DNA of 64,000 nucleotides from Actinacidiphila epipremni (lineage in GTDB: Bacteria; Actinomycetota; Actinomycetes; Streptomycetales; Streptomycetaceae), in assembly GCF_012034175.1 (NCBI RefSeq), contig NZ_JAATEJ010000003.1, forward strand, positions 372,001 to 436,000, read 5' to 3'. The position numbers were made by a program, and so were the translations under genes. Below the pieces are notes generated by a model. It made no database searches. It worked only from the letters and a program-made list of their open reading frames with translations, and was not told the DNA's origin. This document shows, piece after piece, positions 14,744-31,345 of this stretch (its first letter is position 1; each line of letters begins with the position of its first letter).

Positions 14744-16471
14744 ATGGCTCGTCACCTCATCACCTCAGCCCTGCCCTATATCAACGGGATCAAGCACCTG
14801 GGCAACATGGTGGGGTCCATGCTCCCCGCGGACGTCTACGCCCGCTATCTGCGCCAGCGCGGGCACGACGTCCTCTACATCTGCGCGACGGACGAACACG
14901 GCACCCCGGCCGAACTCGCCGCCAAGGAGGCCGGACTTCCCGTCGACGCCTTCTGCGCGCAGGCGCACGACGCCCAGAAAGCGATCTACGACGGCTTCCA
15001 GCTGTCCTTCGACCACTTCGGCCGCAGCTCCTCCGGGCAGAACGTCGAGATCACCCAGCGCTTCGCCCGCCGGCTGAACGAGAACGGCTTCATCGAGGAG
15101 CGGGCGATCCGCCAGGTCTACTCGCTGGCCGACGAGCGCTTCCTGCCCGACCGCTACATCGTCGGCACCTGCCCGCACTGCGGCTACGACAAGGCCCGCG
15201 GCGACCAGTGCGAGAACTGCACCCGCGTCCTGGACCCCACCGACCTCATCGAGCCCCGCTCGGCGATCAGCGGCAGCACCGCGCTGGAGGTCAGGGACAC
15301 CAAGCACCTCTTCCTCCTCCAGTCCAAGCTCGCCGCCGAGGTCGAGTCCTGGCTCGACGCGAACAGCGCCGACTGGCCGACCCTGTCGTCCTCGATCGCC
15401 CGCAAGTGGCTCACCGAGGGCCTGCACGACCGCGCCATCACGCGCGACCTCGACTGGGGCGTCCCGGTGCCCGCCGACACCTGGCCGGAGCTGGCGGCAG
15501 AAGGCAAGGTCTTCTACGTCTGGTTCGACGCGCCGATCGAGTACATCGGTTCCACGAAGGAGTGGGCCGACGCCGCGCCCGAGGGCGAGACGCGCGACTG
15601 GCAGTCGTGGTGGTACGAGGCCGACGACGTCCGCTACACGCAGTTCATGGCCAAGGACAACGTCCCGTTCCACACGGTCATGTTCCCCGCAACCGAGATC
15701 GGAACCAGGGAGCCGTGGAAGAAGGTGGACTACGTCAAATCCTTCAACTGGCTCACCTACTACGGCGGCAAGTTCTCCACCTCGCAGCGCCGCGGGGTCT
15801 TCACCGACGCCGCCCTCGACGTGCTGCCCGCCGACTACTGGCGCTACTTCCTGATGGCCAACGCGCCCGAGTCCGACGACGCGTCCTTCACGTGGGAGCT
15901 GTTCACCGCGGGCGTCAACAAGGACCTCGCCGACACGCTCGGCAACTTCGTCAACCGCGTGCTGTCCTTCTCGCGCAAGCGCTTCGGTGAGCAGGTGCCG
16001 CAGGGCGCGCCGGCCGGCGCGGCCGAGGCCAAGCTCGGCGAGCAGGTCGCCACGCTGCTCGCGGAGTACGAGGGCCACATGGAGACCCTGCAGTTCCGCA
16101 AGGCCGCGCAGTCGCTGCGCGCGCTGTGGAGCGCGGGCAACTCCTACCTGGAGGAGAAGGCGCCCTGGACGGCCGTCAAGACCGACCAGGACGGCGCGGC
16201 CCTCACGCTGCGCACGGCGATGAACCTCATCCACCTCTACGCCGTCGTCTCCGAGCCCTTCATCCCGGCCTCGGCCGCGGCGATGCGGGCGGCCTTCCAA
16301 CTGCCCGCGGACGACGCCCGCTGGGTCACCGCGCAGGAGGCCAGGGCGCTGGACTTCGTGCCGGCCGGCACGCCGTTCACGCTGCCGCCGGTGCTCTTCG
16401 CGAAGATCACCGAGGACGACCTGGCGGCATTCGTGGCCCGCTTCGGCGGGGATCCGGCCGCGGCGGCATGA
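14744..16471 (+). CDS. metG: Methionyl-tRNA synthetase
   Basis: A 575-aa class I synthetase. The HIGH-like signature is in [11 protein letters not shown] near the N-terminus, and the KMSKS position reads KFSTSQRRG, as in several actinobacterial enzymes. A zinc knuckle GTCPHCGYD...DQCENC lies at about 140-165. The C-terminal alpha-helical anticodon domain is present; the OB-fold dimerisation tail is absent. The ATG at 14744 follows GGGAG; an in-frame ATG at 14702 lacks one. It overlaps the convergent small lipoprotein gene by about 65 bp. Confidence 0.96.
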
Positions 16472-16877
16472 CAGCGTCGGCGTCGGCGGCGTCGTCCGTA
16501 CGGTAGCCGGTGCCCGCCGTGACCTCGGCGGGCACCGTCCGCAACGGCCCCTCGTCGGGCACCCGCGAGGGCCGCGCACCTAGGCCGTCGTCGCCACAGC
16601 CGGCGAGCAGCAGCACGCTGCCGGCGAGGGCGAGCAGGGCGGTGCGGCGGGTGGGAGCGGGCGCTCGGGTCGGGCGGTCGGTCGGCGCGGGGGCGGGCGT
16701 CCGGGCGGGCGCCCGGGTGGTCGTGCGGCGGGCGATCGCTCGGGTCATGCGGCGGATGGTCATGCGGCGGGCGATCGCTCGGGCCGTGCGGCGGGTCGGA
16801 TTCCAGGCGGGCGTCCGGGTGGTCGTGCGGGCGGTCATGCGGCGGGCGATCGCTCGGGTCGTGCGGCGGGTGGTCAT
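16407..16877 (-). CDS. Small lipoprotein with repeat-expanded Arg/Thr-rich N-terminus
   Basis: The frame shows a lipoprotein signal [19 protein letters not shown] (lipobox LAGC, twin Arg before the hydrophobic core). A short mature part follows ([16 protein letters not shown]). The ATG at 16877 overlaps the upstream stop as ATGA. About 70 Arg/Thr-rich residues then precede the signal, encoded by repeats around GCGATCGC. Such a long n-region is abnormal. Either the true start is internal or the repeats have expanded. The 3' end runs into convergent metG. The function is unknown; linkage to the sigma-factor operon suggests an envelope role. Confidence 0.6.
16729..16870. repeat. Minisatellite with GCGATCGC cores
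   Basis: A unit resembling CATGCGGCGGGCGATCGC recurs with perfect GCGATCGC palindromes at 16732, 16771 and 16846 (steps of 39 and 75 bp, both multiples of three). The repeat keeps the small lipoprotein frame open. Confidence 0.7.
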
Positions 16878-17863: not shown

Positions 17864-18382
17864 TCATCGCTCGCCCCCGTCCGCCAGTGCCGTTGCCGGG
17901 AGCAGGCCGCGCAGGGTGCGCAGGGCCTTGGCCGACTGGCTCTTGACCGTGCCCTCGGTACACCCCAGCGCCTCCGCCGTCTCGGTCACGCTCAGGTCCT
18001 CGAAGTAGCGCAGTACGACGACCGCGCGCTGCCGCAGCGGCAGGGCCCGTACGGCGGTCGCGAGCGCCTGCTCCAGGTCCACACCGGCGTAGGCGTCCTG
18101 CGCCAGCGCCAGGTCCGGCACATCGCCGTGCGGCACCTCGCCGCGCCATCGGCGGCGCCACCACGAGGCGTGCGTGTGCACCAGGGCCTGGCGGACGTAC
18201 GCTTCCGGGTTCTCGTCGGCGATGCGGGGCCACTTGGGCCAGACCTTGGCCAGGACGGTCTGGAGCAAGTCCTCTGCGAGGTGCGCGTCGCCGGTGAGCA
18301 GCCATGCGACGCGCAGCAGCCGTTGGCTGCGCGCCGCGATGAACTCCTCGAACCCGGCCTCGCCCACGCTTCCCTCCCACAC
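17864..18382 (-). CDS. SigE-family RNA polymerase sigma factor
   Basis: A 172-aa ECF-type sigma factor of the actinobacterial SigE family. Region 2 reads FIAARSQRLLRVAWLLTGDAHLAEDLLQTVLAKVW and region 4 reads ALPLRQRAVVVLRYFEDLSVTETAEALGCTEGTVKSQ. The start could be 18382 or the GTG at 18367, which begins VGEAGFEEF. A membrane protein and a lipoprotein follow on the same strand, a typical layout for an envelope-responsive sigma operon in Streptomyces. Confidence 0.92.
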   Translation of the reverse strand: MWEGSVGEAGFEEFIAARSQRLLRVAWLLTGDAHLAEDLLQTVLAKVWPKWPRIADENPEAYVRQALVHTHASWWRRRWRGEVPHGDVPDLALAQDAYAGVDLEQALATAVRALPLRQRAVVVLRYFEDLSVTETAEALGCTEGTVKSQSAKALRTLRGLLPATALADGGER

Positions 18383-18548
18383 CTCCCTAACGCCCGAGCC
18401 CCGCCCTCAGGTTGCCCTCAGGGAGGGTACGGCTACGGCTGCCGCCGCACGGGCTCTCGCGGGGAGGGCTGCGGTTTGCGCCGCGAGGTGCATTTCAGGG
18501 GCGCGGGGGGACTTCCTCGAAATGCACATGACGTGCGGAGGATGGGTG

Positions 18549-19522
18549 TCAGACCATGGAAGGTATGTACACGACTGCGCATGGCGTCAGCGGCACACGC
18601 CGCGTTGGCGTGCGCAAGCGTCGTCCCGCAAGTCTTCGATGCAGGTTCGCGGCAGCCGCCGGCGTCGGCGGACACATCGTCGCCTGAGCTGACGACTGGG
18701 AGGTTTCCGGAGCCACAGACCCCACCACGCCGCCCGGAATGGGGCCGTGGCTGCGCGGTGAGATTGGGCCATACTCCGGTTTGGTCGGGCCGAGCGTTGA
18801 CCGGATCGGACGCAATCTAAATGCCGAGGCTCGCACAGCCACGTATCGGGCTCGCAGGTGGGCGCAGGACCGTACGGCCCGGTGGGCGCAGGGGCGGCAG
18901 ACCGGCGGGTGGGCGGTGTGTTCGGCTCCGGGCCTCAGGTCGCCGGCCGGAGCGTCGAGGAGCCAGAGCACGCCGTCGGCGGTGCGGTCGGCCGGCCCGC
19001 CGCAGACCTGGCACCGCAGCCCCGTCATACACAACCGCTGCCGCAGACTGTGCACCTTCCCGTACTGTCCTTGGGCCGTTGCGGAGCGGAAGCACGGCCG
19101 ATGTCCTGCGTCCACCTCGGCAAGCCAGCCCGGTTCGGGCTGTGGAGTGCTGGGTGCCGGGAAGGCTGCCACGAGGAAGATGCCTCTTCCTCCGGCTGCT
19201 TCGACGCCGACTTCCTTCAACCGAGGTGGTGTCGGATCTCGGTCCCGTACCGAGATCCGCACCATCGAGTCGGTGGCCTCCAGCGTCAGCTCGATGGCGC
19301 TTACTGGGTCGGGGCCGGATGGGAGTGAGCTGGCCGCCGCCCCCGGGTGACGGATCGCGTTGGTGACCAGCTCGGACACCACGAGGCGGTCGTCTCGACG
19401 GTCTCCTCGGAGCACACCTTCCAGCCCGGCAGCACGTCCGCGACGTGCCGTCGAGCCGAGGCGGGCGAACTGGGCGTATCCGCCAACGTCAGGATGCTGA
19501 TCAAGGGTGATGCCTGGGACAC
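18549..19522 (-). pseudogene. Frameshifted ATP-binding protein fused to a Cys-rich hypothetical
   Basis: A GTG at 19522 with GGGAGG at 6 nt opens an anti-sigma-type ATPase (SQASPLISILTLADTPSSPASARRHVADVLPGW...). Near 19394 one base is missing: GCC-TCGTGG replaces GCCCTCGTGG. The N-box SELVTNAIRH is therefore in the next frame. That frame continues through a G-box remnant (GGRGIFLV). It then runs without a stop into a second protein, MTGLRCQVCGGPADR (ATG at 19028), with paired Cys typical of a small Streptomyces hypothetical. The tail to 18549 looks non-coding. It is probably two decayed genes. Confidence 0.7.
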
Positions 19523-19755
19523 GATGTACCTCCCGGTCGGAGGGGAGCGTTCGGCTGCTGGCTCTCTACTCGTTCTCGATTCGGGTCGCCCTGCCGGAGG
19601 CGAGGCGGATCGCCGGCACACGGACCGGCGACAGCCTCGCCGTAGGTCCTTGAAGTGGTAGGCATCCACAGAACCGTCTCGGCACCGCTCGCAGCAGGGG
19701 CAACAGGGGGTGTAATCAAGCAGGCGGGGATGCAGGAAGGCACCAGGAGGAAGCG

Positions 19756-20571
19756 ATGTCCACCATCAGGGAGACCAGCGCAGCGGGTGGGCGGGGCGGT
19801 CGCTTCGAAGGGCGCCGAATGGTGGTGACCGGTGGTTCCCGTGGCCTTGGAGAGCAAGTGGTCCGGCTGCTGCTCTCCGAGGGGGCCGTTGTCGCAACCT
19901 GCGGGCGGACGGCCGATCACCTCGACGCCCTACGTGACGCCGTTGAGCCTGGCGATCGACACCGGCTGGTCACGCGAGTTCTTGACCTCGTCGAATCTGG
20001 GGCTGTCGAGACCTTCGTCGCGGAGGCAGCCGACGAGCTGGGCGGTCTGGACGGAGCCGTTGCAAGCGCCGGCGGAGCGCGGGGCCGCGGTGTCGGCGAG
20101 GCCACGCATCAGGACTGGGCGACGACCTGGGAATTGAACGCGGGCCACGCCGCCCGGCTCATCGGGGCGGTGGCTCCCCACCTGCGGGCCGCCGGTGGTG
20201 GGTCCGTCGTGGTGGTCTCGTCGATCTCCGGCTCCCGGCCTGGTCCCCAGGCTCAGTACGGTGCTGCCAAGGCTGCTCAGATCCACATGGTGTCGTCCCT
20301 GGCGCGGGAGCTTGGCGCCGACGGCATCAGGGTGAACGCCGTCAGCCCGGGGTCGATGCTCATCCGGGGAAAGCGGTGGTACCGGATGCGGGAGGGGGAC
20401 CCGGCTGCCTTCGAGCGGTTCCGGGACGAGTTCCCCGGCCGAGAGTTGGTCGACCCACGGGAGGTCGCCGATGTGATCGCCTTCCTGCTGTCGGCGGAGT
20501 CCCGGGGAGTGACGGGGGCCAATATCCCTGTGGACCGGGGGCAGAACGCCCCCACACCCGACGGGTACTGA
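19756..20571 (+). CDS. Short-chain dehydrogenase/reductase
   Basis: A 271-aa classical SDR. It has the nucleotide-binding TGGSRGLG near residue 25, the NAG-like motif as ASAGG, the catalytic Ser in VVSSISG, YGAAK (Tyr and Lys), and a C-terminal GANIPVDRG. AGGAGG stands 6-7 nt before the ATG. It is convergent with the TPR regulator (10 bp gap). The substrate cannot be read from the sequence; it could serve the nucleoside-like cluster downstream, but nothing proves it. Confidence 0.9.
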   Translation: MSTIRETSAAGGRGGRFEGRRMVVTGGSRGLGEQVVRLLLSEGAVVATCGRTADHLDALRDAVEPGDRHRLVTRVLDLVESGAVETFVAEAADELGGLDGAVASAGGARGRGVGEATHQDWATTWELNAGHAARLIGAVAPHLRAAGGGSVVVVSSISGSRPGPQAQYGAAKAAQIHMVSSLARELGADGIRVNAVSPGSMLIRGKRWYRMREGDPAAFERFRDEFPGRELVDPREVADVIAFLLSAESRGVTGANIPVDRGQNAPTPDGY

Positions 20572-20581
20572 TCAGCGGACC

Positions 20582-21967
20582 TCAGGCGGCCTCGCCGAGA
20601 ATCGGCCGAGCCTTCCGCTCGAAGTCACGCACGAGAGCCTCGGTCCGGCGAGGAGCGAGCCGGGAGCGGAAGTCCCGGAGCGCCTGCACCGACCGCTCGC
20701 TGTGGACGTCTCCCAACTGGTCGAGCGCACGCGTCGCCGTTCCGACGGCCTCGTCCAGACGGTTCTGCTGGAAGAGGGCCGTCGCCAGGACGGAGCGGCT
20801 GATGGCCTGTCGGCGGCGCCGGTTGGCGTTGGCCCGCACGGACGCTTCCGCCAGGCGCTCCGCCTCCGCGGACTCACCGAGATCGCGATGGACGAGCGCG
20901 GCCTCCGCTTCCAGGTAGTGATGGTCCAGATATCCGACCCAGCGGGACTCCTCGTCCGCCCCACGGCTCAGGTCGAAAGCCGCGTTCGCGGCGACGAGGG
21001 AGCGGGTCGCCGGTTGGGAGTCGCCCAGCGCGGCGTGGCCACGGGCGGCCATTGCGTGCAAGCGCATCAGCCCGAGCGGACTGCCCGCGGACTTGGCCGT
21101 GGCGATCCCGGCGCGGGCGAGCGAGACCCCCTCGGCTGGGTTCCCCAGGCTGGTGGCCAGGTGGGACATGCCGGCCAGGATCTGACCGCCGAGGACGCGG
21201 TCACCGCCTTCTGCACACAGCCGCAGGGCCTGGGTCATGTACCGCTGTGCGAGGCCGTAGTCGGCGGAGTCGTACGAGCACCACCCGGCCATCGCGGCGA
21301 GTTTGGCCGCAGACGTGAAGAGGAGGCGTCGCTGGTGGGGCGGCGTACCGTGCTGCTGCAGCAACGGCGTCAACTCCGTGCTGAGGTAGTGCACGATGCT
21401 GGCCCGGACGCCACCGCCACCGAACCTGTTGTCCATCTCGTCGAACATGCCGATCATCGCCTGAACTCGCTGCGCAGGACCTCCGCCCGCAACGGCGGCC
21501 AGTCGCGGCGCCTGGTCCTCCTCCAGGAGCCAGAGCAGCCACTGGCGCTGCGGATCCATCAAGGCCGTCGCCACGAACGGCACGGTCCCGAGCAGACTGC
21601 GGCGCGAGATGTCGGTGGAGCCGAGCTCCGCGAGAATGTGCAGCGTTTCGGCCACATCTTCACGATACGTCAGCGCCTTGGCCACGACCGGGCGCTGCGG
21701 CTCGGTGGGAAAGGCCAGATCGACCTGCGACACCGGACGGCCGAGGAATCCCGCCAGGGCAGCGGCAATGAACTCCGGAGCCCGGCCCCGCGGGACCATG
21801 CCGCTGAGCCACCGGGTCACGGACGCCTTGTCGTATCGCGACACCACGCCCTGCGCCCGCCCGAGTTCGTTGACCTTGCGGGCTAAGGCCGCGTGAGAGC
21901 ATCCGGCTTCGAGGATCGCCGACCCCAGCGCGGTGTTCCCGTCCGCAGGGCCTCTGTTCCTGACCAT
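20582..21967 (-). CDS. HTH/TPR transcriptional regulator; TTA codon
   Basis: A 461-aa protein. The N-terminal 90 residues look like a divergent helix-turn-helix (CSHAALARKVNELGRAQ ... SVTRWLSGMVPRG). Residues about 130-440 form helical TPR-like repeats (AKLAAMAGWCSYDSADYGLAQRYM, ARGHAALGDSQPATRSL). The layout resembles NsdA-type regulators of Streptomyces. Codon 28 is TTA (21886-21884), so expression should need bldA. It is divergent from the radical SAM gene at 22170 (202 bp apart) and is the likely regulator of that cluster. Confidence 0.85.
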   Translation of the reverse strand: MVRNRGPADGNTALGSAILEAGCSHAALARKVNELGRAQGVVSRYDKASVTRWLSGMVPRGRAPEFIAAALAGFLGRPVSQVDLAFPTEPQRPVVAKALTYREDVAETLHILAELGSTDISRRSLLGTVPFVATALMDPQRQWLLWLLEEDQAPRLAAVAGGGPAQRVQAMIGMFDEMDNRFGGGGVRASIVHYLSTELTPLLQQHGTPPHQRRLLFTSAAKLAAMAGWCSYDSADYGLAQRYMTQALRLCAEGGDRVLGGQILAGMSHLATSLGNPAEGVSLARAGIATAKSAGSPLGLMRLHAMAARGHAALGDSQPATRSLVAANAAFDLSRGADEESRWVGYLDHHYLEAEAALVHRDLGESAEAERLAEASVRANANRRRRQAISRSVLATALFQQNRLDEAVGTATRALDQLGDVHSERSVQALRDFRSRLAPRRTEALVRDFERKARPILGEAA

Positions 21968-22169
21968 GTTCTGATGATGCCCCGTCGATCACGCGGCGTC
22001 CCAGCCTTCGTACCGCGGGTAGCTGATTTACAACCCCTGTGCAACCGAACAACTCCGACGACCCCTCGTCGGGAGCCTGTCCCCGCCCGAGACTGAAAGC
22101 GCGGGGGCGACGGTCCAGCGCTCCGGGAGACCCGTGGCCCGAGGCAGCCCCAGCAGAGGGAGGGGAACG

Positions 22170-23690
22170 ATGAGCCCAGTCGTGATCCTGGATTGCTTCA
22201 CTGTCGAGCCGAGCGGCCTCGGTGTGCCGCCCTACCTGTCGACGTACGTGCGGAGCGCATGGTCGGCCCTGCGGCGGTCCCGGCCGGACGCAGACCTGCG
22301 GTACCTGACGATCGACGACGTCCGCTGGTGCCTCGCGGGCGGAAGGCCCGCCGTGGAACCGCCGCAGAGCGATCCCCTGACGTACTCCGTCACCGCCAAC
22401 CGCGACAACGCCATCCAGCTCCTGCGTGACGCCGGGTTGGTCGTCGTGGTCGCCGGTGACGCGGTGCCGTCCGTCCACCTGCACGCCGTGAACGGCTCGC
22501 CGGAGGAGATCGCCCGCGCCCTCGCGTGCGTCCGGGGCCGACGCTGCCTTCTCGGGCCGCTGTCGGCGTACGTGAACGACGCCCCCGCGCAGTACGCCGG
22601 GCTGTTCGACGCCGTGCACGCGGCGACCATCACGTCCAGGGACATCACCCTCGGCAGCCGCCAGGCGGCGCCGTACGACCTGATGCGCGGTGACCGGGAG
22701 GACTTCGGCAGGCTGGTCGCGCAAATGCCGTGGCGACCGATCGCCGAACTGGAGCTGTACCGCGGGTGCACGCGGCGGAAGTTCTGCGACTTCTGCAACG
22801 AGCCGGCCAAGTCGCCGCTCGTCGCCTTCCGGGACGTCGAGGACGTCGTGGAGGAGGCCGCCCAGCTCTACGCGGCCGGAATCCGCAACTTCCGGCTCGG
22901 CCAGCAGACCTGCTTCTTCTCCTACCGCAACCGGGACGAGGAAGCGATCCGGGCTCTGCTCGGCGGTATTCGGGAGCGTTGCCCGGAACTGGAGGTGCTC
23001 CACATCGACAACGCGGACCCACTCGCCGTGGCCGCCCCGGTCGGGGCGCGGATCGCCAAGCTGGTCGCCGAGCACTGCACCGAGGGAAACTGCGCTCCGA
23101 TGGGCATCGAGACCTTCGATCCGGCCGTCGTCGACCGCAACAACCTCACGTGCACTCCCGACATCCTGATGCGCGCGGTCCAGCACATCAACGAGGCAGG
23201 AGCGGACCGCGGCCCCGGCGGACTGCCGAAGCTCCTGCCCGGCCTGAACCTGATCTACGGACTGCCCGGCGAAACCCACGGCACCCACGTCGCCAACCTT
23301 CTGGGCCTCAGCCGGATCCTCGACGCAGGGCTCCTGTGCCACCGCACCAACGTCCGGCTGGCCCGAGCCTTCCCGGGAACGCCGCTGGCCGCCCTCGGCC
23401 GACAGGACCCGCTGCCGTCCGCCGAGCACTTCGCCTCCTGGAAGGCGGACATCGACTTCGGCTGGGACCAGCCGATGAAAGAACGTGTGTACCCCACCGG
23501 GTTGTGCATCCCGGGACTGCACTCCTACTTCGTCGGCCAGAGCGGCACATGGTGGCGCCGCCTGGGCTCGTACTCGATCCAGATCATCGAGCGCGACACC
23601 GCCACCCCCCTGGGAACCACTGGCGACCTCACCGTCACCGGCCATGCCCCTCGGATGATTTACGGAGAGCGCCTTGCCGCAGCCGCCTGA
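22170..23690 (+). CDS. Radical SAM enzyme with unusual CX5CX2C motif
   Basis: A 506-aa protein. Residues 1-185 form a Rossmann-like N-terminal region (ILDCFTVEPSGLGVPPYLSTYVR). It has the position of a cobalamin-binding domain, but no DxHxxG motif is visible. The cluster-binding cysteines are C200, C206 and C209 (CTRRKFCDFC), a CX5CX2C spacing in place of the usual CX3CX2C. Later parts fit a radical SAM barrel (FRLGQQTCFFSY, APMGIETFDP, LNLIYGLPGET). The ATG at 22170 follows GAGGGGAAC. The next gene overlaps its 3' end by 17 bp. It is the likely core enzyme of the cluster; the reaction is unknown. Confidence 0.88.
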   Translation: MSPVVILDCFTVEPSGLGVPPYLSTYVRSAWSALRRSRPDADLRYLTIDDVRWCLAGGRPAVEPPQSDPLTYSVTANRDNAIQLLRDAGLVVVVAGDAVPSVHLHAVNGSPEEIARALACVRGRRCLLGPLSAYVNDAPAQYAGLFDAVHAATITSRDITLGSRQAAPYDLMRGDREDFGRLVAQMPWRPIAELELYRGCTRRKFCDFCNEPAKSPLVAFRDVEDVVEEAAQLYAAGIRNFRLGQQTCFFSYRNRDEEAIRALLGGIRERCPELEVLHIDNADPLAVAAPVGARIAKLVAEHCTEGNCAPMGIETFDPAVVDRNNLTCTPDILMRAVQHINEAGADRGPGGLPKLLPGLNLIYGLPGETHGTHVANLLGLSRILDAGLLCHRTNVRLARAFPGTPLAALGRQDPLPSAEHFASWKADIDFGWDQPMKERVYPTGLCIPGLHSYFVGQSGTWWRRLGSYSIQIIERDTATPLGTTGDLTVTGHAPRMIYGERLAAAA

Positions 23691-24384
23691 GGGCACCCTC
23701 GACCTGCTCGCCAGGCTCGACGAGGGCAGCAGCCGCACGGTCCGCGTCGGGGTGCTGCTGCCCTGGGCCAACGTCGCTGTCGAGACCGAACTCCCGCGCC
23801 TGGGCCTGACGCACACGGTCTTCCACCACGCCCGCCTCGTGCCGGAGTCACGGACCACGGCGGTCGACCACATCTTCTGGAGCGGCCTGCGCGAAGCCGC
23901 CGCCGGGGCGCTGGACTCGTTGTCGCACGTGCCGCTGGACGCGGTCGTCCTCGCCTGCACCTCGGCTGGGTTCACCGGCGGTCCCGAGATGCCGCCCGGC
24001 GTCGTCACCGCGTTCGACGCCCTGGTCGGCACCCTGACCTCGGCCCGACTGGGGCGGGTCGTCCTGGCCACGCCATACCCGAGCCCGGTGACCGCGGCGG
24101 AGAGCGACGCTCTGGCCAAGGCTGGCATCGACGTCCTGGCCCACGTGAGTCTGGGGCTCGACGACGGCTATCCGGCGGTCAGTGCGGAGAAAGTGCTGGC
24201 CCTGGTCAGCGCCCTGCCGGAGGGGGCGGTGCAGGCGGCCGACGCCGTCGTGCTGTCGTGCACCGGGTGGCACACCCTGCCAGTCGTCCAGGACGTGGAG
24301 CAGGCGACTGGCAAGCCCGTGATCACGTCCAATCTCGCCATCGGGCTGCTCGCAGCCCGCCTTTCCGCCGGAGCAACCCTGTGA
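23674..24384 (+). CDS. Asp/Glu racemase-fold enzyme (maleate isomerase/arylmalonate decarboxylase type)
   Basis: A 236-aa protein. It has a Pro-Trp-Ala-Asn motif after the first strand (LLPWANVAVE), Cys 95 in VVLACTSAGF and Cys 196 in VVLSCTGWHTLP. These are the two-cysteine active-site positions of this superfamily. A TTG start at 23674 lies 5 nt after GGAGAG and overlaps the radical SAM gene by 17 bp, so the two are translationally coupled. Family members isomerise, racemise or decarboxylate small acids by Cys chemistry. The substrate here is unknown. Confidence 0.85.
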   Translation: MPQPPEGTLDLLARLDEGSSRTVRVGVLLPWANVAVETELPRLGLTHTVFHHARLVPESRTTAVDHIFWSGLREAAAGALDSLSHVPLDAVVLACTSAGFTGGPEMPPGVVTAFDALVGTLTSARLGRVVLATPYPSPVTAAESDALAKAGIDVLAHVSLGLDDGYPAVSAEKVLALVSALPEGAVQAADAVVLSCTGWHTLPVVQDVEQATGKPVITSNLAIGLLAARLSAGATL

Positions 24385-25205
24385 CCCTCGAACGTCCAAG
24401 GCCCCGCGCGATCGACAACCGGCGCATCCACCGACTTGTCGAACGGGCCGCCGCCCTGCCCGACGTCCGCACCGAGGCCGAGGCCAACCACGACGACAAC
24501 CGGTGGTGGCCGCTGTCCACCACCGATCACCGCATGCGCATGCTTGCCGCCGGCTGGTCCACCCGGGTGTCCTACCGGATGGTGGAGACCTACCGGCACG
24601 TCATCCTGGCAGCCGACGCCCGCGGGTTCGACGTACTGGCGAACGCGTCGGACGACGACCTCGGCGCGCTGGTCCGGCCGATCGGCCTGCCCCGGGCTCG
24701 GATCGACTACCTGCGCTCGCTCGTCGACCTGTGCACGTTGTGGGACAAGCAGGCGATCGATCCGTCGTCTCCCACCGCGAGCGTCGACGACCTCGTGGCG
24801 GACTTCGCCGAACGGGTGCGCGGCGCCTCCTTCAAGGTCGCGCAGTGCGCCCTGCTCAACGCCCGCGGCTATCACAGCGGCATCGTCCCGGTGGACTCCG
24901 GCATGGTCGGCAAACTCGCGCCCGCCCTCGGTATCGAGCTGCCCAGCGGTGCGGTGGCTCACGAGAGGTTCCGGCACATCCTCGAAGCGGCGGTCCACGC
25001 GCACCGCGACGACTTCCGGGCACTCGCGGTCCAGCACGAGTACGCGGTCACCATCCCGGACGGCGCCGAGCCGACCTGGTGGGTCCACCTGGTCCTCATC
25101 TACTTCAAGCGCCTCTACCTCAACGGCCCGTCCCCTCGACTGTGCACCCGCCGACCGGTGTGCACGCAGGTGGTCGACTGCCCCCACCGGAAGCGCGGAA
25201 CGTGA
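24381..25205 (+). CDS. Endonuclease III-like HhH-fold protein
   Basis: A 274-aa protein starting at a GTG that overlaps the previous stop (GTGA). It resembles the HhH-GPD fold. The segment RPIGLPRARIDYLRSL precedes a hairpin-like VRGASFKVAQCALLNARG (Lys 152), then GIVPVDSGMVGKLAPALGI (Asp 172), matching the Lys/Asp pair of endonuclease III. The C-terminal CTRRPVCTQVVDC (C255, C261, C267) resembles the iron-sulfur loop but has three Cys at different spacing. It could be a DNA glycosylase or, in this setting, an enzyme acting on a modified nucleotide. Assignment is by eye and needs profile search. Confidence 0.6.
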   Translation: MTLERPRPRAIDNRRIHRLVERAAALPDVRTEAEANHDDNRWWPLSTTDHRMRMLAAGWSTRVSYRMVETYRHVILAADARGFDVLANASDDDLGALVRPIGLPRARIDYLRSLVDLCTLWDKQAIDPSSPTASVDDLVADFAERVRGASFKVAQCALLNARGYHSGIVPVDSGMVGKLAPALGIELPSGAVAHERFRHILEAAVHAHRDDFRALAVQHEYAVTIPDGAEPTWWVHLVLIYFKRLYLNGPSPRLCTRRPVCTQVVDCPHRKRGT

Positions 25206-26020
25206 CCGCACTGGCCGTGATCGGCAACGTCTCCCGCGACACGACGCGTTACCCCGACGGCCGGGGAGGCGTCAGCCTCGGCGGCGCCGCACTGCTGACC
25301 TCGCTGGCCGCCACCCGGGCCGGACTCCGAGCCGGACCGATCTGCGTCTTGGGTGACGACCTCGCCCACCTCCCGGAGGCAGCCGACTTCGCGGCGCTGG
25401 ACTGGTCGGCGGCATCCCGACTTGTCGGCCCGTCGCCGTCGTTCGGCCTCACCTACGACGGGGCCGGCGAACTGCTCGCGATCAGCACGGACTACGGCGT
25501 CGCCGAGGGACTCACCGACCACGTGCTCGCACATCTGGCCCGCTCCGCCGGCGGCACGTACCACGTCTGCTGCCGGCGCCCTCTCGGCGTCCGCACGGTC
25601 CTCGCCGAGCTGGCGAGGCGGCGGGCCGACTTCAGCCTCGACTTCTACCTGCCCAGCGCAGCACCGCTGATCCGGGAGGCCCTTCCCTGGCTGGCGGAGG
25701 CGTCCACCGTCTTCGTCAACGCAGCCGAATACCAGGCACTCCGGGGCCTGGTCGATGTCTCCCACTTGCAGGAAGTCGTGATCACTGACGGCCCCCGCAC
25801 GGCGCGCGTTCTCGAGTCCGGGCGGGCAGTCGCCGAGGCCCGGCCGCCGACCCGCGCTGCTCGCGACGTGACCGGGGCTGGCGACACGCTGGCCGGCACG
25901 TACCGGGCCCAGCGTGACCAAGGCGCCACTGCTCAGCAGGCCCTCGCCCGAGCGGTGTTCGCCGCCGCCGAGCACGTCATAGCGCCACCCCTGCCGATTC
26001 CGGCGCCCCGCCGCGCCTGA
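25202..26020 (+). CDS. PfkB-family carbohydrate/nucleoside kinase
   Basis: A 272-aa protein. It has the N-terminal AVIGNVSRD strand and a Gly-rich GGVSLGGAALLTS. The C-terminal PfkB signature DVTGAGDTLAGTY (GAGD at 225-228, Asp 228 as base) forms the anion hole. The GTG at 25202 overlaps the previous stop by 4 bp. PfkB kinases phosphorylate sugars or nucleosides such as ribose, adenosine or pseudouridine. Next to a deoxyribosyltransferase and a thymidylate-kinase-like gene, a nucleoside or sugar substrate is plausible. Confidence 0.9.
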   Translation: MTALAVIGNVSRDTTRYPDGRGGVSLGGAALLTSLAATRAGLRAGPICVLGDDLAHLPEAADFAALDWSAASRLVGPSPSFGLTYDGAGELLAISTDYGVAEGLTDHVLAHLARSAGGTYHVCCRRPLGVRTVLAELARRRADFSLDFYLPSAAPLIREALPWLAEASTVFVNAAEYQALRGLVDVSHLQEVVITDGPRTARVLESGRAVAEARPPTRAARDVTGAGDTLAGTYRAQRDQGATAQQALARAVFAAAEHVIAPPLPIPAPRRA

Positions 26021-26041
26021 CCCATCCGTTGGGAGCACCCG

Positions 26042-26989
26042 GTGTACTACATCGCTCACCGACTTTTCGCCGCGCACGACCGCGCTTTGGCCGCCGACCT
26101 CGCCAAGCGCCTGGCCGACAAGGTCGGCCCGAACCGCGTCTTCCTGCCGTTCTGCGACACCGACGAGGAACAACTGGTCGCCGACGTCAAGGGACGACGT
26201 CTCTTCGAGCTGGACCGTGAACGCCTGCGTCGGATCGACGCGATGGTGGCCATCCTGCACGGTCCGAGCCTGGACGACGGCGTCTGCATGGAGATCGGGT
26301 ACGCCTGGGCGTGCGGCGTGCCGGTCGTCGTACTGACGACGGACTTCCAGACGTACTCGCTGACGGCGGACGGTCCGCGGCTCGAATTCCCCGATCCGCT
26401 GATCGAGGCGGCGGCGACTCGCGTCATCCGACTGCCCCGCCTCGGGCCGCCGACCACGGCGTCGGAGTTGGGTACGGCCTCACGCTTCACCGCTTTCCGC
26501 GAGCGCAACCTCGTACAAGCGGCATCCGCACTCGACACTGCCGTCGAGGCTCTGCTCGAACTGCCGGCGCCTGCCCGACACGAACCTCGCCCACCCGCTG
26601 GAGGGACGGTGTACGTCGAGCCCTCCCCGTACGGTCGTCGGGGTGTCGATCACCTCGTCCAGGCGTGCGTCTCAGTCGGGTACCGCATCGTCGGGCCGCA
26701 GCGCTTTACCGCGCCCGACCCTCTCTCGGCTGCGCTGGCCGACCTGACGGCCGCTGTCGGCACGAGGCGCCTCCTTGTCGACGTCTCCGGACCGGAAACC
26801 CCACCTGGTGGCGCACTGCTCATCGGCGCCGCATGCGCCTCCGGCACGCCCACTGCCGCCTACGCCTGCCGAACCGGCTTCACCCACGCCGTCGGGCGTG
26901 AGCCGAACTGGCGGAACCTCATGATCCAGTACGCCGTGCAGGCCCGGCTCGACACTCCGGAGGCCGTCACCGCCTGGCTGTCGGCATGA
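26042..26989 (+). CDS. Nucleoside 2-deoxyribosyltransferase-like protein, two-domain
   Basis: A 315-aa protein. The first half has the deoxyribosyltransferase signature SLDDGVCMEIGYAWACGVP, with Glu 84 as the expected nucleophile. From about residue 183 a second domain of similar pattern starts (GTVYVEPSPYGRRGVDHLVQACVSVGYRIVGP) and ends GGALLIGAACASGTPTAAY; it lacks an equivalent Glu. Single-domain family members are about 150 aa, so this looks like a duplication with one dead copy. The GTG at 26042 follows GGGAG. Related enzymes swap bases on deoxynucleosides or hydrolyse nucleotides, as MilB and BlsM do in nucleoside antibiotic pathways. Confidence 0.82.
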   Translation: MYYIAHRLFAAHDRALAADLAKRLADKVGPNRVFLPFCDTDEEQLVADVKGRRLFELDRERLRRIDAMVAILHGPSLDDGVCMEIGYAWACGVPVVVLTTDFQTYSLTADGPRLEFPDPLIEAAATRVIRLPRLGPPTTASELGTASRFTAFRERNLVQAASALDTAVEALLELPAPARHEPRPPAGGTVYVEPSPYGRRGVDHLVQACVSVGYRIVGPQRFTAPDPLSAALADLTAAVGTRRLLVDVSGPETPPGGALLIGAACASGTPTAAYACRTGFTHAVGREPNWRNLMIQYAVQARLDTPEAVTAWLSA

Positions 26990-27486
26990 GCGTCGAACAG
27001 ATCGTCGCAGGCCACCGGACCCTGGTCCTCGAAGGGTGCGACGGCGTCGGGAAGACCACCCTGGCCCGACGCCTGTCCGTCGACCATGGCTTCACGGTGG
27101 TGCACTCCCCACGAACCCCCGACCACCTCGACCTCGCCGGCCGGTACCGAGCGATCCTGGCCCAGGAGGGCCACCTCCTGTTCGACCGCTGCTTCCTCAG
27201 CGAACTGGTCTACGGCCCCCTCAACCGGGGCCGCTCCCGCATCACATGGAGCGAGGCCATCGACCTCGCCGAAACCGTCATCGCCCGCGACGGCCTGCTC
27301 GTCCACCTCACCGCCCCGCCGGCCGTCGTCCGCCAACGGCTCCTCACCCGCGATGGCGAAGCCATCAGCCTTGACGAGGTCACGGCTCTGATCACGGCAT
27401 ACCGGCGCGTCTTCGAGACCCTGGCGGACTATGCACCTGTGCTGACGATCAACACCAGCACGCTGGACGTCCCCTCTACAGAGTGA
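26986..27486 (+). CDS. Thymidylate kinase-like P-loop protein
   Basis: A 166-aa protein. It has the Walker A GCDGVGKTT (about 17-25), the DR motif LFDRCFLSELVYG (about 67-79) and an Arg-rich lid region (RQRLLTRDG). It resembles deoxynucleotide kinases but is shorter than housekeeping Tmk (about 200-210 aa). The ATG overlaps the previous stop by 4 bp (ATGA), continuing the coupled chain of genes. It probably phosphorylates a nucleotide made by this cluster; the exact base is unknown. Confidence 0.85.
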   Translation: MSVEQIVAGHRTLVLEGCDGVGKTTLARRLSVDHGFTVVHSPRTPDHLDLAGRYRAILAQEGHLLFDRCFLSELVYGPLNRGRSRITWSEAIDLAETVIARDGLLVHLTAPPAVVRQRLLTRDGEAISLDEVTALITAYRRVFETLADYAPVLTINTSTLDVPSTE

Positions 27487-27567
27487 ACTTCCCTCCCCCT
27501 CTTCTCGGACGCGTTCTTCACCTCGCTAGGCTGCGACCGCACCTGCTGCCGCGCCGTCGGAGGAGCC

Positions 27568-27873
27568 ATGGACATCCGGTCCGCCCAGAAGCTCGCCTGG
27601 GAGAACAAGACCGCCAAGGGCTTCAACACCACCGATGTGCCTCTAGAGTTCGGCCTCCTGACCGCCGAGATCGGCGAAGCCTTCACCGCGTGGCGCAAGG
27701 GCCTGCCCGACTTCGGCGAGGAGCTCGCCGACGTCTTCCTCTACCTCGTGGCCCTCGCCGAGATGAACGGCATCGACCTCGGCGACGAGGTGGCCCACAA
27801 GATCGACAAGAATTCCCGCCGCGTCTACGACCGCAACGAGCACGGGGTGCCGATCCGGGTTGGCGAAGGCTAG
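27568..27873 (+). CDS. MazG-like nucleotide pyrophosphohydrolase
   Basis: A 101-aa all-alpha protein. It shows the metal-binding pattern EIGEAFTAW followed by EELADVFLYL (ExxE then ExxD), the MazG/dUTPase-like signature. It begins 81 bp after the kinase stop with its own GGAGG (5 nt upstream). Such enzymes cut NTPs or dNTPs to NMP and pyrophosphate. It would either feed the deoxyribosyltransferase with monophosphates or clear a toxic modified triphosphate. Confidence 0.85.
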   Translation: MDIRSAQKLAWENKTAKGFNTTDVPLEFGLLTAEIGEAFTAWRKGLPDFGEELADVFLYLVALAEMNGIDLGDEVAHKIDKNSRRVYDRNEHGVPIRVGEG

Positions 27874-28170
27874 ACCGCTCTGCTTGCAACTCCCGGCCGG
27901 GCACTGACGGATGTGACGGGAATTGGTGCAGGGACGCGTGACAGGTCAAGACATCACTTGATCGTGCAGTCGGGCCCCTGCCTGGCGGCCCAGGACTTGA
28001 TCAAGTTCCGTTGAAAGACGCTTGCCTGGTTCTTGCGCTGCGGGGCAACGCGCCAGGGGGTACCCGGGTGAAGCTCGTGGGGAGTGGCGCCGCAAGCCAT
28101 GGACCGGCGGATGGTCCCGCGAGGGCAGGGCGGGGCAGCCCGGGGGGCTGGAGGGCGGCGTGTGCGGGGG
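27874..28170. other. Gene-free stretch with a 12-bp palindrome
   Basis: About 300 bp between the MazG-like gene and the lipoprotein gene. The only structure seen is the perfect palindrome ACTTGATCAAGT at 27995-28006, with a partial match CACTTGATC at 27955-27963. The 5' half has lower GC than its surroundings. No coding frame is supported. Confidence 0.5.
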
Positions 28171-28812
28171 TCAGGTTGTGGAGGGGGTGGGGCGCTGGGG
28201 GAGGAGGGCCTTGCATGTGTTGTACGCCGAAGCGATCTTCGGGTCCGAGGTGTTGAGGCCGCCGAAGCCGCGGCGGGCGGTGGATGTGGAGTCGGGGGAC
28301 GGGGAGCCCGTCGGGAGGGTCACCCCGTGGTCCTTGAGGCAACTCGTGAACGCCTGGAAGGCACTCGCGTCGGCCCCGCCGCCCCCCGCGCCCCCGCGGT
28401 TGAACTGAGGCCGAAGCGACGCGCACGCGTCCAGCGCCTTCTGCGTCGCCGGGTCCGCCGACGCGCCGCCGAAGCCGGGGAAGCCCCCGCCGAAGCCGCC
28501 ACCGCCGCCGGGGCGGCCCGAGGGCCGGCCGGACGGGCGGCCGGAGGGCCGGCCTGAGGGGCGCCCCGCGCCCTGCGAGAAGCTCGGAAGCTTCACGCCG
28601 TGCTGCGACAGGCAGTCCCGGTACGCGGCCATGTCCTGCGCACCGCCGGAGGCCGAGGCCGAGGCGGAGGCCGACGAGGAGGGCGCCGAGGACGCCTTCG
28701 CGTCGGACGGGCCCGAGCCCCCGGAGGAGCACGCCGCGAGCAGCAGCGCCCCGGAGGCGATGACGGCGACGGACGCGCCGGCCCGCAGGGCGGTGGTGGG
28801 GATCCGGGTCAT
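28171..28812 (-). CDS. Gly/Arg/Pro-repeat lipoprotein
   Basis: A 213-aa lipoprotein with signal VAVIASGALLLAAC (lipobox LAAC), then a Ser/Ala linker. Two similar four-helix-like parts (YRDCLSQHGVKLPS and FTSCLKDHGVTLPT, each with one Cys) are separated by five GRPS repeats and a Gly-rich run. The ATG at 28812 is preceded by GAGGAG. It is divergent from the exporter operon at 29097; similar proteins accompany MacAB-like exporters in Streptomyces, but their role is not known to me. Confidence 0.8.
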   Translation of the reverse strand: MTRIPTTALRAGASVAVIASGALLLAACSSGGSGPSDAKASSAPSSSASASASASGGAQDMAAYRDCLSQHGVKLPSFSQGAGRPSGRPSGRPSGRPSGRPGGGGGFGGGFPGFGGASADPATQKALDACASLRPQFNRGGAGGGGADASAFQAFTSCLKDHGVTLPTGSPSPDSTSTARRGFGGLNTSDPKIASAYNTCKALLPQRPTPSTT

Positions 28813-29096
28813 GGCCGTGGTCTCCTCGGAAGGCGGAAGCGATGAGCCGCCCCACGCGTGCGCGCGGGGAAAGGCGTACCAGCGCAGGGCGGCAGCCCAT
28901 GACTGAACCGCACCCACGTAGGCGCCGCCCGGACGCCGCCTGTGAGTTCCCGGGGAACAGACCGCCCCCTACCGCCCGAACCCGGCACACCCGCGCCCGT
29001 AATGCGGCGTCGCACCGTAAAAAACCCTTTCGCGGTCCCAGAGAACTCCCAGACTGCTCTCAGGGCTTCAAAGGAGTGGCCCGCCAGGATGCGGGC

Positions 29097-30443
29097 ATGA
29101 AGGTGCTCCCACGGCGGCGCAGGGCCGCCCTGATCAACTCGGTGCTCGGCGTGGTCGTCCTCGCGGGCGCCGGCGGCGCCTACGCCGCCGTCCACGACGA
29201 CGGCGCCAAGTCCACCGGCAGCGGCACCGCGCGCGTCGCGACCGTGGCCAAGGGCACCGTCCTCGCCACGGTGTCCGGCTCCGGCACGCTCGCCTCGCCG
29301 AGCGACGCGGGCCTGGACTTCACCACCGGCGGCACGCTCACCGCGGTGGACGTCAAGCCGGGCGACAAGGTCAAGAAGGGCCAGGTGCTGGCCAAGGTCG
29401 ACGCGACGGACGCGAAGGCCACGCTCCAGCAGGACGAGGCCACGCTCGACGCGGCGGAGGCCAACCTGACGAAGGTCGAGGCCGGCGAGCTCCCCGCCTC
29501 CTCCGGCAACTCCGACTCCGGGAACGGCCGCGGGCAGTCCTCGCCCACCCCCTCCCCGACCCCGACCGTGGACGCCGCCCAGCTCGCGCAGGCGCAGGCC
29601 CAGGTCACGCAGGCGCAGAACGCCGTGGACGCCGCCCAGCGCGCGGTCGACGGCACGACGCTCAAGGCCCCGGTCGCCGGTACGGTCGCCTCCGTCGCCG
29701 GCAAGAAGGGCGACACGGTCTCCGGCACCGGCGGCAACGGCTCGGGCGGCAGCGGTAGTGGCAGTGGCAGCGCCGGCGGCTCCGGCTCGGGTTCGAGTGG
29801 CAGCTCCACCGGCTCCCTCAGCGGCTTCATCGTGCTCACCAACCCGGCCGGCATGCAGGTCACCGCGAACTTCTCCGAGGCCGACTCGCTGAAGATCAAG
29901 GCCGGCCAGTCCGCCACGGTGACCCTCAACGCCGAGTCCGGCACCGTCCTGGACGCCAAGGTGCTGAGCATCAGCTCGCTCCCCGCGAGCAGCGGCTCGG
30001 GCTCCGGCGGCGGCTCGTCCAGCGGCGCCGTCCAGTACCCGGCGACGCTCCAGATCACCAGCGACACCTCGAACCTGCGCACGGGCCTGAGCGCCAGCAT
30101 CCAGGTCACCACGGCCTCGGCGAGCGACGCGCTGAGCGTCCCGACCGCCGCGGTCACCGGCACCGGCACCAACCGCTCCGTGCTGGTCGTCAACGCCGAC
30201 GGCTCCACGACCCGTACGCCCGTCACCGTCGGCATCGAGGGCGACTCCACCGACCAGATCACCAGCGGCCTGAGCGAGGGCCAGCGGGTGCAGATCCCCA
30301 CGGTCGCCTCGTCCGGCAGCAACGGCTTCCCCAGCGGCGCCTTCCCCGGCGGCTTCGGCGGCGGTGCGGGCCGGCTCGGCGCGGCCGGCGGCGCCGGCGG
30401 CGGGACCTTCCGCGGCTTCGGCGGCGCGGGCGGTGGCCGATGA
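29097..30443 (+). CDS. Periplasmic adaptor (HlyD/MacA-type) of ABC exporter
   Basis: A 448-aa protein with an N-terminal membrane anchor (ALINSVLGVVVLAGAGGAYAAV). The first half of a lipoyl domain (GTLTAVDVKPGDKVKKGQVLAKVDA) is followed by a coiled coil with a Ser/Pro linker. The second lipoyl half (LKAPVAGTVASVAGKKGDTVSG) is interrupted by a long Gly/Ser run (about 215-245). Beta-barrel and membrane-proximal domains follow, ending in a Gly-rich tail. The stop overlaps the ATPase start (ATGA). It links the exporter to the extracytoplasmic side. Confidence 0.9.
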   Translation: MKVLPRRRRAALINSVLGVVVLAGAGGAYAAVHDDGAKSTGSGTARVATVAKGTVLATVSGSGTLASPSDAGLDFTTGGTLTAVDVKPGDKVKKGQVLAKVDATDAKATLQQDEATLDAAEANLTKVEAGELPASSGNSDSGNGRGQSSPTPSPTPTVDAAQLAQAQAQVTQAQNAVDAAQRAVDGTTLKAPVAGTVASVAGKKGDTVSGTGGNGSGGSGSGSGSAGGSGSGSSGSSTGSLSGFIVLTNPAGMQVTANFSEADSLKIKAGQSATVTLNAESGTVLDAKVLSISSLPASSGSGSGGGSSSGAVQYPATLQITSDTSNLRTGLSASIQVTTASASDALSVPTAAVTGTGTNRSVLVVNADGSTTRTPVTVGIEGDSTDQITSGLSEGQRVQIPTVASSGSNGFPSGAFPGGFGGGAGRLGAAGGAGGGTFRGFGGAGGGR

Positions 30444-31345
30444 GGCTGGGCCTCGGCCGCCTGGACGCTCTGCGCGGACGCACCGGCGCCCACCGCAGGG
30501 CCGACGGGCCGGCCCCGGAAGCGGAGGAGGGCCCCTGGGGCCCGCCCCCCGTCATCGAGGTGCGCGCGCTGCTGAAGACGTACGGCCACGGCGACGCGAC
30601 CGTACGCGCCCTCGGCGGCCCGCCCGACCCGCTCACCGGCGCGTCACCCGGCGTGGACCTGCTGGTCGAGCAGGGCGACCTCATCGCGGTGATGGGCAGC
30701 TCCGGCTCCGGCAAGTCCACCCTCATGAACATCCTGGGCTGCCTGGACGTGCCGACCTCCGGCCGCTACCTGCTCGACGGCATCGACGTCGGCGGTCTCG
30801 ACGAGCACCAGCTCTCCCTGGTGCGCAACCGCAAGATCGGCTTCGTCTTCCAGTCCTTCAACCTCGTGCCGCGCACCCCCGCGCTCGCCCAGGTCGAACT
30901 GCCGCTCGCGTACGCGGGCGTGAAGTCCGCCGAGCGGCGGCGGCGCGCACTGGCCGCGCTGGAACTGGTGGGCCTGGCCGACCGGGTGGACCACCGGCCC
31001 AACGAGCTGTCCGGCGGCCAGCAGCAGCGCGTCGCCGTGGCCCGCGCGCTGGTCACCGCGCCGGCGATGCTGCTCGCCGACGAGCCGACCGGCAACCTGG
31101 ACAGCCACAGCACGGAGGAAGTGCTCTCGATCGTGGACCGGCTCAACGCGTCCGGGCGCACCGTCGTCCTGATCACCCACGAGGACGAGGTCGCCCGGCA
31201 CGCCAAGCGCGTCGTACGGCTGGTGGACGGGCAGGTCGTCAGCGACGTACGGCAGGCGCCGGTCGACGGCCCGCCGCCCGCGCTGCGCGACCCCGCGCTC
31301 TTCCGGGCCGCCGCCCCCCAGGCACTCACCGGAGGCGCGCTGTGA
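30440..31345 (+). CDS. ABC transporter ATP-binding protein (MacB/LolD type)
   Basis: A 301-aa protein with Walker A GSSGSGKST, Q-loop VFQSFNLV, signature LSGGQQQRVAVARAL, Walker B MLLADEPTGNLDS and the switch His (LITHEDE). About 40 extra residues precede the domain, and an insert of about 12 (GGPPDPLTGASP) lies before strand 3. The ATG overlaps the adaptor stop; the stop overlaps the permease GTG. The subunit order MacA, ATPase, permease with overlaps marks one operon. Confidence 0.95.
   Translation: MRLGLGRLDALRGRTGAHRRADGPAPEAEEGPWGPPPVIEVRALLKTYGHGDATVRALGGPPDPLTGASPGVDLLVEQGDLIAVMGSSGSGKSTLMNILGCLDVPTSGRYLLDGIDVGGLDEHQLSLVRNRKIGFVFQSFNLVPRTPALAQVELPLAYAGVKSAERRRRALAALELVGLADRVDHRPNELSGGQQQRVAVARALVTAPAMLLADEPTGNLDSHSTEEVLSIVDRLNASGRTVVLITHEDEVARHAKRVVRLVDGQVVSDVRQAPVDGPPPALRDPALFRAAAPQALTGGAL

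Follow-up and report, generated by a model that had tools for sequence, protein, structure and literature searches.

Two kinds of described system come closest to the locus reported here: the MilB/BlsM-type nucleoside antibiotic clusters (mildiomycin, blasticidin S) and the prokaryotic viperins with their associated kinases. Clusters for DNA-damaging natural products use dedicated glycosylases for self-resistance, and in the thymidine hypermodification pathways of phages a helix-hairpin-helix (HhH) fold, a radical SAM enzyme and a P-loop kinase occur together. We analyzed a 64,000-nucleotide stretch of Actinacidiphila epipremni (contig NZ_JAATEJ010000003.1, positions 372,001 to 436,000), hereafter the window, which contains a unit of nine genes: seven genes, A–G, arranged head to tail on the + strand at window positions 22170-27873, a divergent NsdA-family regulator and an SDR gene. 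What the analysis shows is the gene set and its order, the inheritance of the genes together, purifying selection, signs of mobility, and the families or folds of the products. The enzymes suggest, tentatively and in our estimate at somewhat less than even odds, that the operon makes a non-canonical deoxynucleotide and protects its producer from it. The unit consists of the following genes (aa, amino acids).

19756..20571, + strand: SDR-family oxidoreductase, 271 aa, accessory member (Pfam adh_short_C2, 1.8e-45)
20582..21967, - strand: NsdA-family TPR regulator, 461 aa, TTA at codon 28 (NCBIfam NF053720, 1.5e-113)
22170..23690, + strand: A, radical SAM protein, 506 aa (PF04055, 1.8e-10)
23674..24384, + strand: B, maleate-isomerase/arylmalonate-decarboxylase-like protein, 236 aa (PDB maleate isomerase, 6.2e-20)
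24381..25205, + strand: C, HhH-GPD glycosylase-fold protein, 274 aa, conserved K152 and D172
25202..26020, + strand: D, PfkB/ribokinase-fold kinase, 272 aa, GAGD motif (PF00294, 5.4e-14)
26042..26989, + strand: E, tandem nucleoside 2-deoxyribosyltransferase (NDT), 315 aa (PF05014, 2.7e-17)
26986..27486, + strand: F, P-loop (deoxy)nucleotide kinase-like protein, 166 aa (PHROG 761 thymidylate kinase, 3.9e-23; PDB YorR, 1.6e-13)
27568..27873, + strand: G, MazG-like nucleotide pyrophosphohydrolase, 101 aa (PF03819, 24.9 bits, cut-off 22)

A sequence-only reading of the window had placed six genes of these families with overlapping or nearly touching ends, plus a MazG-like gene on the same strand, at 22134..27873, and had described a divergent TPR regulator with a TTA codon. 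Both descriptions were borne out, with start sites corrected. A and B overlap by 17 bases, and B/C, C/D and E/F by 4 bases each, with gaps of 21 bases between D and E and 81 bases between F and G. The start of A is most likely ATG 22170 (506 aa) and not GTG 22134, because a close relative (L026) has a stop codon within the GTG 22134 extension; C and D start at GTG 24381 and GTG 25202, each overlapping the preceding stop codon by 4 bases. With the regulator divergent from A and the SDR gene beyond it, the unit reaches past 22134..27873. A scan for promoter and terminator consensus gave no signal exceeding shuffles, and an Rfam scan of window 18000-29000 gave no match.

We compared the window with 23 other loci, comprising 13 named genome loci, seven more loci from the window's family and three Streptomyces plasmids. 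In 22 of the 23, genes A–G are complete and keep one order, at 40–96% protein identity; this is more than chance would give, and it answers the question of conserved order on which the sequence-only reading depended. The one exception, L013, is a contig of 3,067 bases with C–F. Among the 22, six have G inverted. Imperfect loci counted among the 22 are L003 (D internally shortened), L004 (E frame continuing into F), L014 (masked bases interrupting C) and L027 (A split over two overlapping frames). Left out of the counts were duplicate places (L001, L015–L025, L042, L059), L032 and L034 (on contigs already represented by L003 and L004), L060 (genome G515, a C homolog with a stop at a contig end), L074 (a 99-residue piece of A) and plasmid hit H3. 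Hosts of the named loci include Actinacidiphila, Kitasatospora, Actinomadura, Actinoallomurus, Paractinoplanes, Mangrovihabitans, Streptosporangiaceae, Nocardiopsaceae and one metagenome-assembled genome (MAG) labeled Solirubrobacterales.

An all-against-all comparison of open reading frames (ORFs) in the window and 17 loci found no family common to all except A–G (and antisense frames); the SDR and the regulator were common to subsets only. A close relative of the regulator occurs at 11 of the 23 other loci (partial in L003) and the SDR lies near the regulator at 10, with a transposase gene in between in L033; in L004 both genes are on the opposite side, beyond G. A histidine-kinase-like ATPase gene is located upstream of the SDR in several relatives, and window 19161-19522 (- strand) holds what appears to be a frameshifted remnant of such a gene in two overlapping frames. 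Downstream of the operon, window 29094-31345 encodes an HlyD-like membrane-fusion protein and an ABC ATPase, apparently unrelated to it.

The sequence-only reading had proposed co-occurrence across genomes as a check. Of the 249 genomes in the window's family, 11 contain C; exactly these 11 also have a full-strength A (in one as two overlapping frames) and an E that is complete or almost so. Two other genomes gave weak, partial matches to A at ~3e-4. The E search matched nine additional family genomes, three of them weakly and six with fragments (L075–L080). A–D are absent around all of these fragments; four of the six genomes keep F beside an E without its first part (F being split in one and shortened in one), two of those four also keep G, and the other two hold short pieces of E only. 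Because A, C and full-length E co-occur, and A–D are gone where E is fragmentary, the operon has been gained and lost largely as a set. Phylum-wide, among 396 genomes, C occurred in two, the window's own genome and G515, where an in-frame stop lies in C near a contig end. Full-strength A occurred in the window's own genome alone, with 16 more weak partial matches. All nine genes are under purifying selection, with dN/dS (the ratio of nonsynonymous to synonymous substitution rates) of 0.06 to 0.42 against four relatives, dS exceeding 1 in some of the distant comparisons.

Several features mark the unit as accessory and mobile. Of the 11 genomes, at least 7 have a tyrosine integrase no more than 10 kb from the operon, against 0.6 expected from integrase density. 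Five of these seven carry one homologous integrase (82–89% identity) and, immediately downstream of G, an XRE gene; the integrase cases are therefore not seven independent events. Two integrase-like genes and a tRNA-Lys adjoin the operon in L010, and a tRNA-Lys lies 370 bases from G in L012. The three Streptomyces plasmids hold the whole of A–G, with no internal stops in the stretches checked. One of them also encodes, ~9.5 kb upstream of A (L072:1-477), a VUT-family transporter whose annotation mentions queuosine salvage. At L030, a tRNA-Thr beside the integrase (with 60 bases on each side) had no second attachment-site-like copy of ≥18 bases in 64 kb, so no island end was set; a tRNA-Thr with the same anticodon lies ~5 and 10 kb past the integrase in the L031 and L033 genomes (L040, L041). 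An argument for horizontal transfer from divergence was rejected: the identity of C to the window's copy (66–72% in eight distant genomes, 91–92% in two near ones) parallels that of each genome's own endonuclease III (77–81% and 92%). The case for mobility is made by integrases, plasmids, patchiness and remnants, not by divergence.

These same features bear on an alternative in which the operon is an anti-phage device, a modified (deoxy)nucleotide corrupting or stopping phage DNA synthesis while G and C shield the host; viperin's product acts likewise on RNA synthesis. The integrases, the plasmid copies and the patchiness (11/249) favor it indirectly, as does the pairing of a radical SAM protein with a nucleotide kinase, F weakly resembling VakA (PADLOC, 3.4e-08), a viperin-associated kinase. 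A pPIWI-RE gene (L007:1711-4314) and a Wadjet JetA gene (L006:3099-4622) also adjoin two of the loci. Set against this, A–E, G, the regulator and the SDR have no PADLOC match at E-values up to 0.1, the weak single-protein matches of F being all that PADLOC gives for the unit, and the TTA codon of the regulator suggests developmental rather than infection-triggered control. The 143 flanking ORFs of 20 loci gave some defense-family matches, a figure that stands without a baseline; among the 25 listed of 55 matching families, JetA, pPIWI-RE, the type II methyltransferase group, PDC-S18 and C3a206 were each matched by one ORF, and mad2 and mad3 by two ORFs each (best 6.5e-20 and 2.6e-29), with a mad2 match in L008. 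On balance we regard an anti-phage function as unlikely. We place at a similarly low level the more specific idea of a DNA-level counterpart of viperin, in which a mobile operon would turn a radical-SAM-made base into a toxic deoxynucleotide that poisons invading or competing DNA synthesis, with two layers of immunity (MazG in the pool and the glycosylase in DNA).

The reading that the operon makes a deoxynucleotide draws on three proteins: E is an NDT with its catalytic set, F is near phage thymidylate kinases and deoxynucleoside kinases, and G is near DCTPP1 and MazZ. E scores 63.4 bits against PF05014 Nuc_deoxyrib_tr (cut-off 28.8), and both of its halves match NDT-fold structures (fold search with a predicted model of pLDDT 79.6). 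In the N-terminal half, D58, D78 and E84 align with D62, D82 and E88 of the Chroococcidiopsis NDT (CtNDT, chain 8qc0); across 20 sequences, D58 and E84 are invariant and at least 90% keep D78. The C-terminal half is without that Glu and carries an invariant RN-MIQY motif (20 rows). E thus has the NDT fold together with the catalytic Asp/Glu residues, and deoxyribosyl transfer is its predicted activity. F scores 27.8 bits against Pfam dNK (cut-off 27), several AAA/TMK models falling below cut-off, and phage thymidylate-kinase and dNK families are its nearest relatives. The best PDB match of G is DCTPP1 (5.9e-08), with MazZ ranking fifth (7.2e-07).

The remaining enzymes are assigned to their families by profile and conserved residues. 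A scores 41.7 bits against Radical_SAM PF04055 (cut-off 29.5); its Fe-S motif is CX5CX2C (C200, C206, C209) instead of CX3CX2C, and C9, C248, C303, C308, C328 and C390 are further cysteines invariant in 18 of 18 aligned rows. B scores 48.2 bits against Pfam Amdase, with C95 and C196 invariant in 17 of 17 aligned rows, and D scores 52.7 bits against Pfam PfkB, with the GAGD residues G225, A226, G227 and D228 invariant across 18 rows.

Taken together, these assignments suggest a pathway in which A and B, plus the SDR where present, would build or remodel a base. E would load this base onto deoxyribose, using a single active site completed by its own second half; D would phosphorylate the nucleoside and F would take it to the diphosphate. 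G may then cut the triphosphate back to the monophosphate in the nucleotide pool, and C may excise the base once it is incorporated in DNA. The same parts could instead serve to purge a nucleotide of this kind, or could produce it for use against phages.

The base-excision role proposed for C draws on its apparent DNA-glycosylase fold, suggested by structure comparison, and on its conserved Lys and Asp. C scores 18.2 bits against Pfam HhH-GPD, below the 26.2 cut-off. The catalytic Asp expected past the HhH motif corresponds to D172, invariant in 20 of 20 sequences, and K152 is conserved in at least 90% of the 20; both stand opposite the Asp and Lys of endonuclease III in an alignment that is itself not significant. 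Structure also suggested that C might belong to the Qng1 family, a candidate that profiles did not support: PF10343 (Qng1/Q_salvage) had no match among 20 C relatives at E-values up to 10, the window's own genome was negative, and hhalign gave a probability of 1.3%. Base salvage with a Qng1-like C, which would recover a modified base by cleaving a ribonucleotide, is very unlikely in our view.

The HhH fold of C, together with a radical SAM protein and a P-loop kinase, also recalls the set found in phage thymidine hypermodification, and a ThyA homolog lies within 7 kb of A at one of 23 loci (L014), as might be expected of a system that alters the host's own bases by a similar logic. That ThyA has no relatives near any other locus (tblastn, 1e-8), A–G include no ThyA or hydroxymethylase gene and the window has no ThyA homolog. 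C had no significant match among viral structures (best E-value 0.13), relatives of A and C were absent from viral contigs in pattern scans, and relatives of C and E were absent from phage records. No family of the thymidine pyrophosphorylase HhH group appeared among the Pfam matches, the presence of such a model in the library being unchecked. The sequence-only reading had named a nucleoside natural product, a phage-like hypermodified base and a defense device as candidates; the enzymes favor its nucleoside or base pathway, and hypermodification emerges as the weakest of the explanations, to which we assign a very low probability. On the L014 contig (the Solirubrobacterales-labeled MAG), the operon is flanked by three genes of note, at 858-1886, 15670-16665 and 18213-18833: that of the ThyA homolog, another radical SAM gene and one for a P-loop kinase-like protein.

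The regulator is a clear member of the NsdA family (NCBIfam NF053720, 380.6 bits against a cut-off of 75) and holds a single TTA, at codon 28. Across the window, ten window-family loci and the plasmid locus L073, the regulator has a TTA in 9 of 12 loci, compared with 4 of 69 flanking ORFs; it is at codon 28 in two loci and at codon 75 or 76 in seven (codon 75 in the plasmid copy). Elsewhere in the cluster, TTA occurs in F at 4 of 11 and in D at 1 of 11 family loci, and in none of the remaining genes. Streptomyces regulators with TTA usually respond to the tRNA gene bldA, and hence to development and specialized metabolism; through this rare codon, the regulator may tie the pathway to development.

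Salvage or detoxification would use the same enzymes in the other direction: C and G would remove a damaged base or deoxynucleotide, E would free the base, D would phosphorylate the freed sugar or nucleoside, and A and B would degrade the base. The operon is rare and patchy, unlike housekeeping repair, F acts in the synthetic direction, and a radical SAM enzyme and a TTA-bearing regulator would be unusual for sanitation, making this explanation improbable.

The joint retention, movement and loss of seven nucleotide-chemistry enzymes in Actinobacteria point to a metabolite that none of our searches found described. Should this metabolite be a deoxynucleotide, it would represent a new antimetabolite or DNA base equipped with a self-protection pair, of use for antibiotics, phage biology and enzymatic nucleoside synthesis. 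At 5.7 kb and seven genes, the operon is small enough to be tested directly by heterologous expression in a laboratory strain of Streptomyces.

As the sequence-only reading had supposed, the set matches no described pathway in Pfam, NCBIfam, PADLOC, PHROGs or searches of the open-access literature. In that literature, COG1031 returned no relevant work, and viperin combined with nucleoside 2-deoxyribosyltransferase turned up only work on TIR-like NADases and Thoeris. An archaeal radical SAM protein, from a haloarchaeal (Natronorubrum) plasmid (L070:11977-13704), shares 31% identity over 98% of A; it differs in having a CX3CX2C motif and in adjoining a TRAM gene, and a profile search with C gave no match in that plasmid record. 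Like phage thymidine hypermodification, the unit brings together an HhH-fold enzyme, a radical SAM protein and a P-loop kinase, but it has no hydroxymethylase and no phage relatives of C or E, and it adds two base-cleaving folds and a MazG. It shares with prokaryotic viperins and their associated kinases the logic of a radical SAM protein with a nucleotide kinase, F being weakly VakA-like, whereas A has no match to the viperin models that the PADLOC library includes, carries CX5CX2C and is accompanied by five additional enzymes. From the MilB/BlsM-type clusters the unit differs in its E, a tandem fusion of which only one half has the catalytic Glu, and in having no tailoring or export genes in its conserved part (window and 17 loci); we know of no HhH glycosylase, PfkB, thymidylate-kinase-like or MazG protein from such clusters. 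In its predicted working the operon is closest to nucleoside-antibiotic pathways and to viperin-type nucleotide weapons, yet it does not group with either here, since it is without tailoring and export genes and A is without a PADLOC match; its enzyme families are known, and its novelty lies in their combination and strict linkage.

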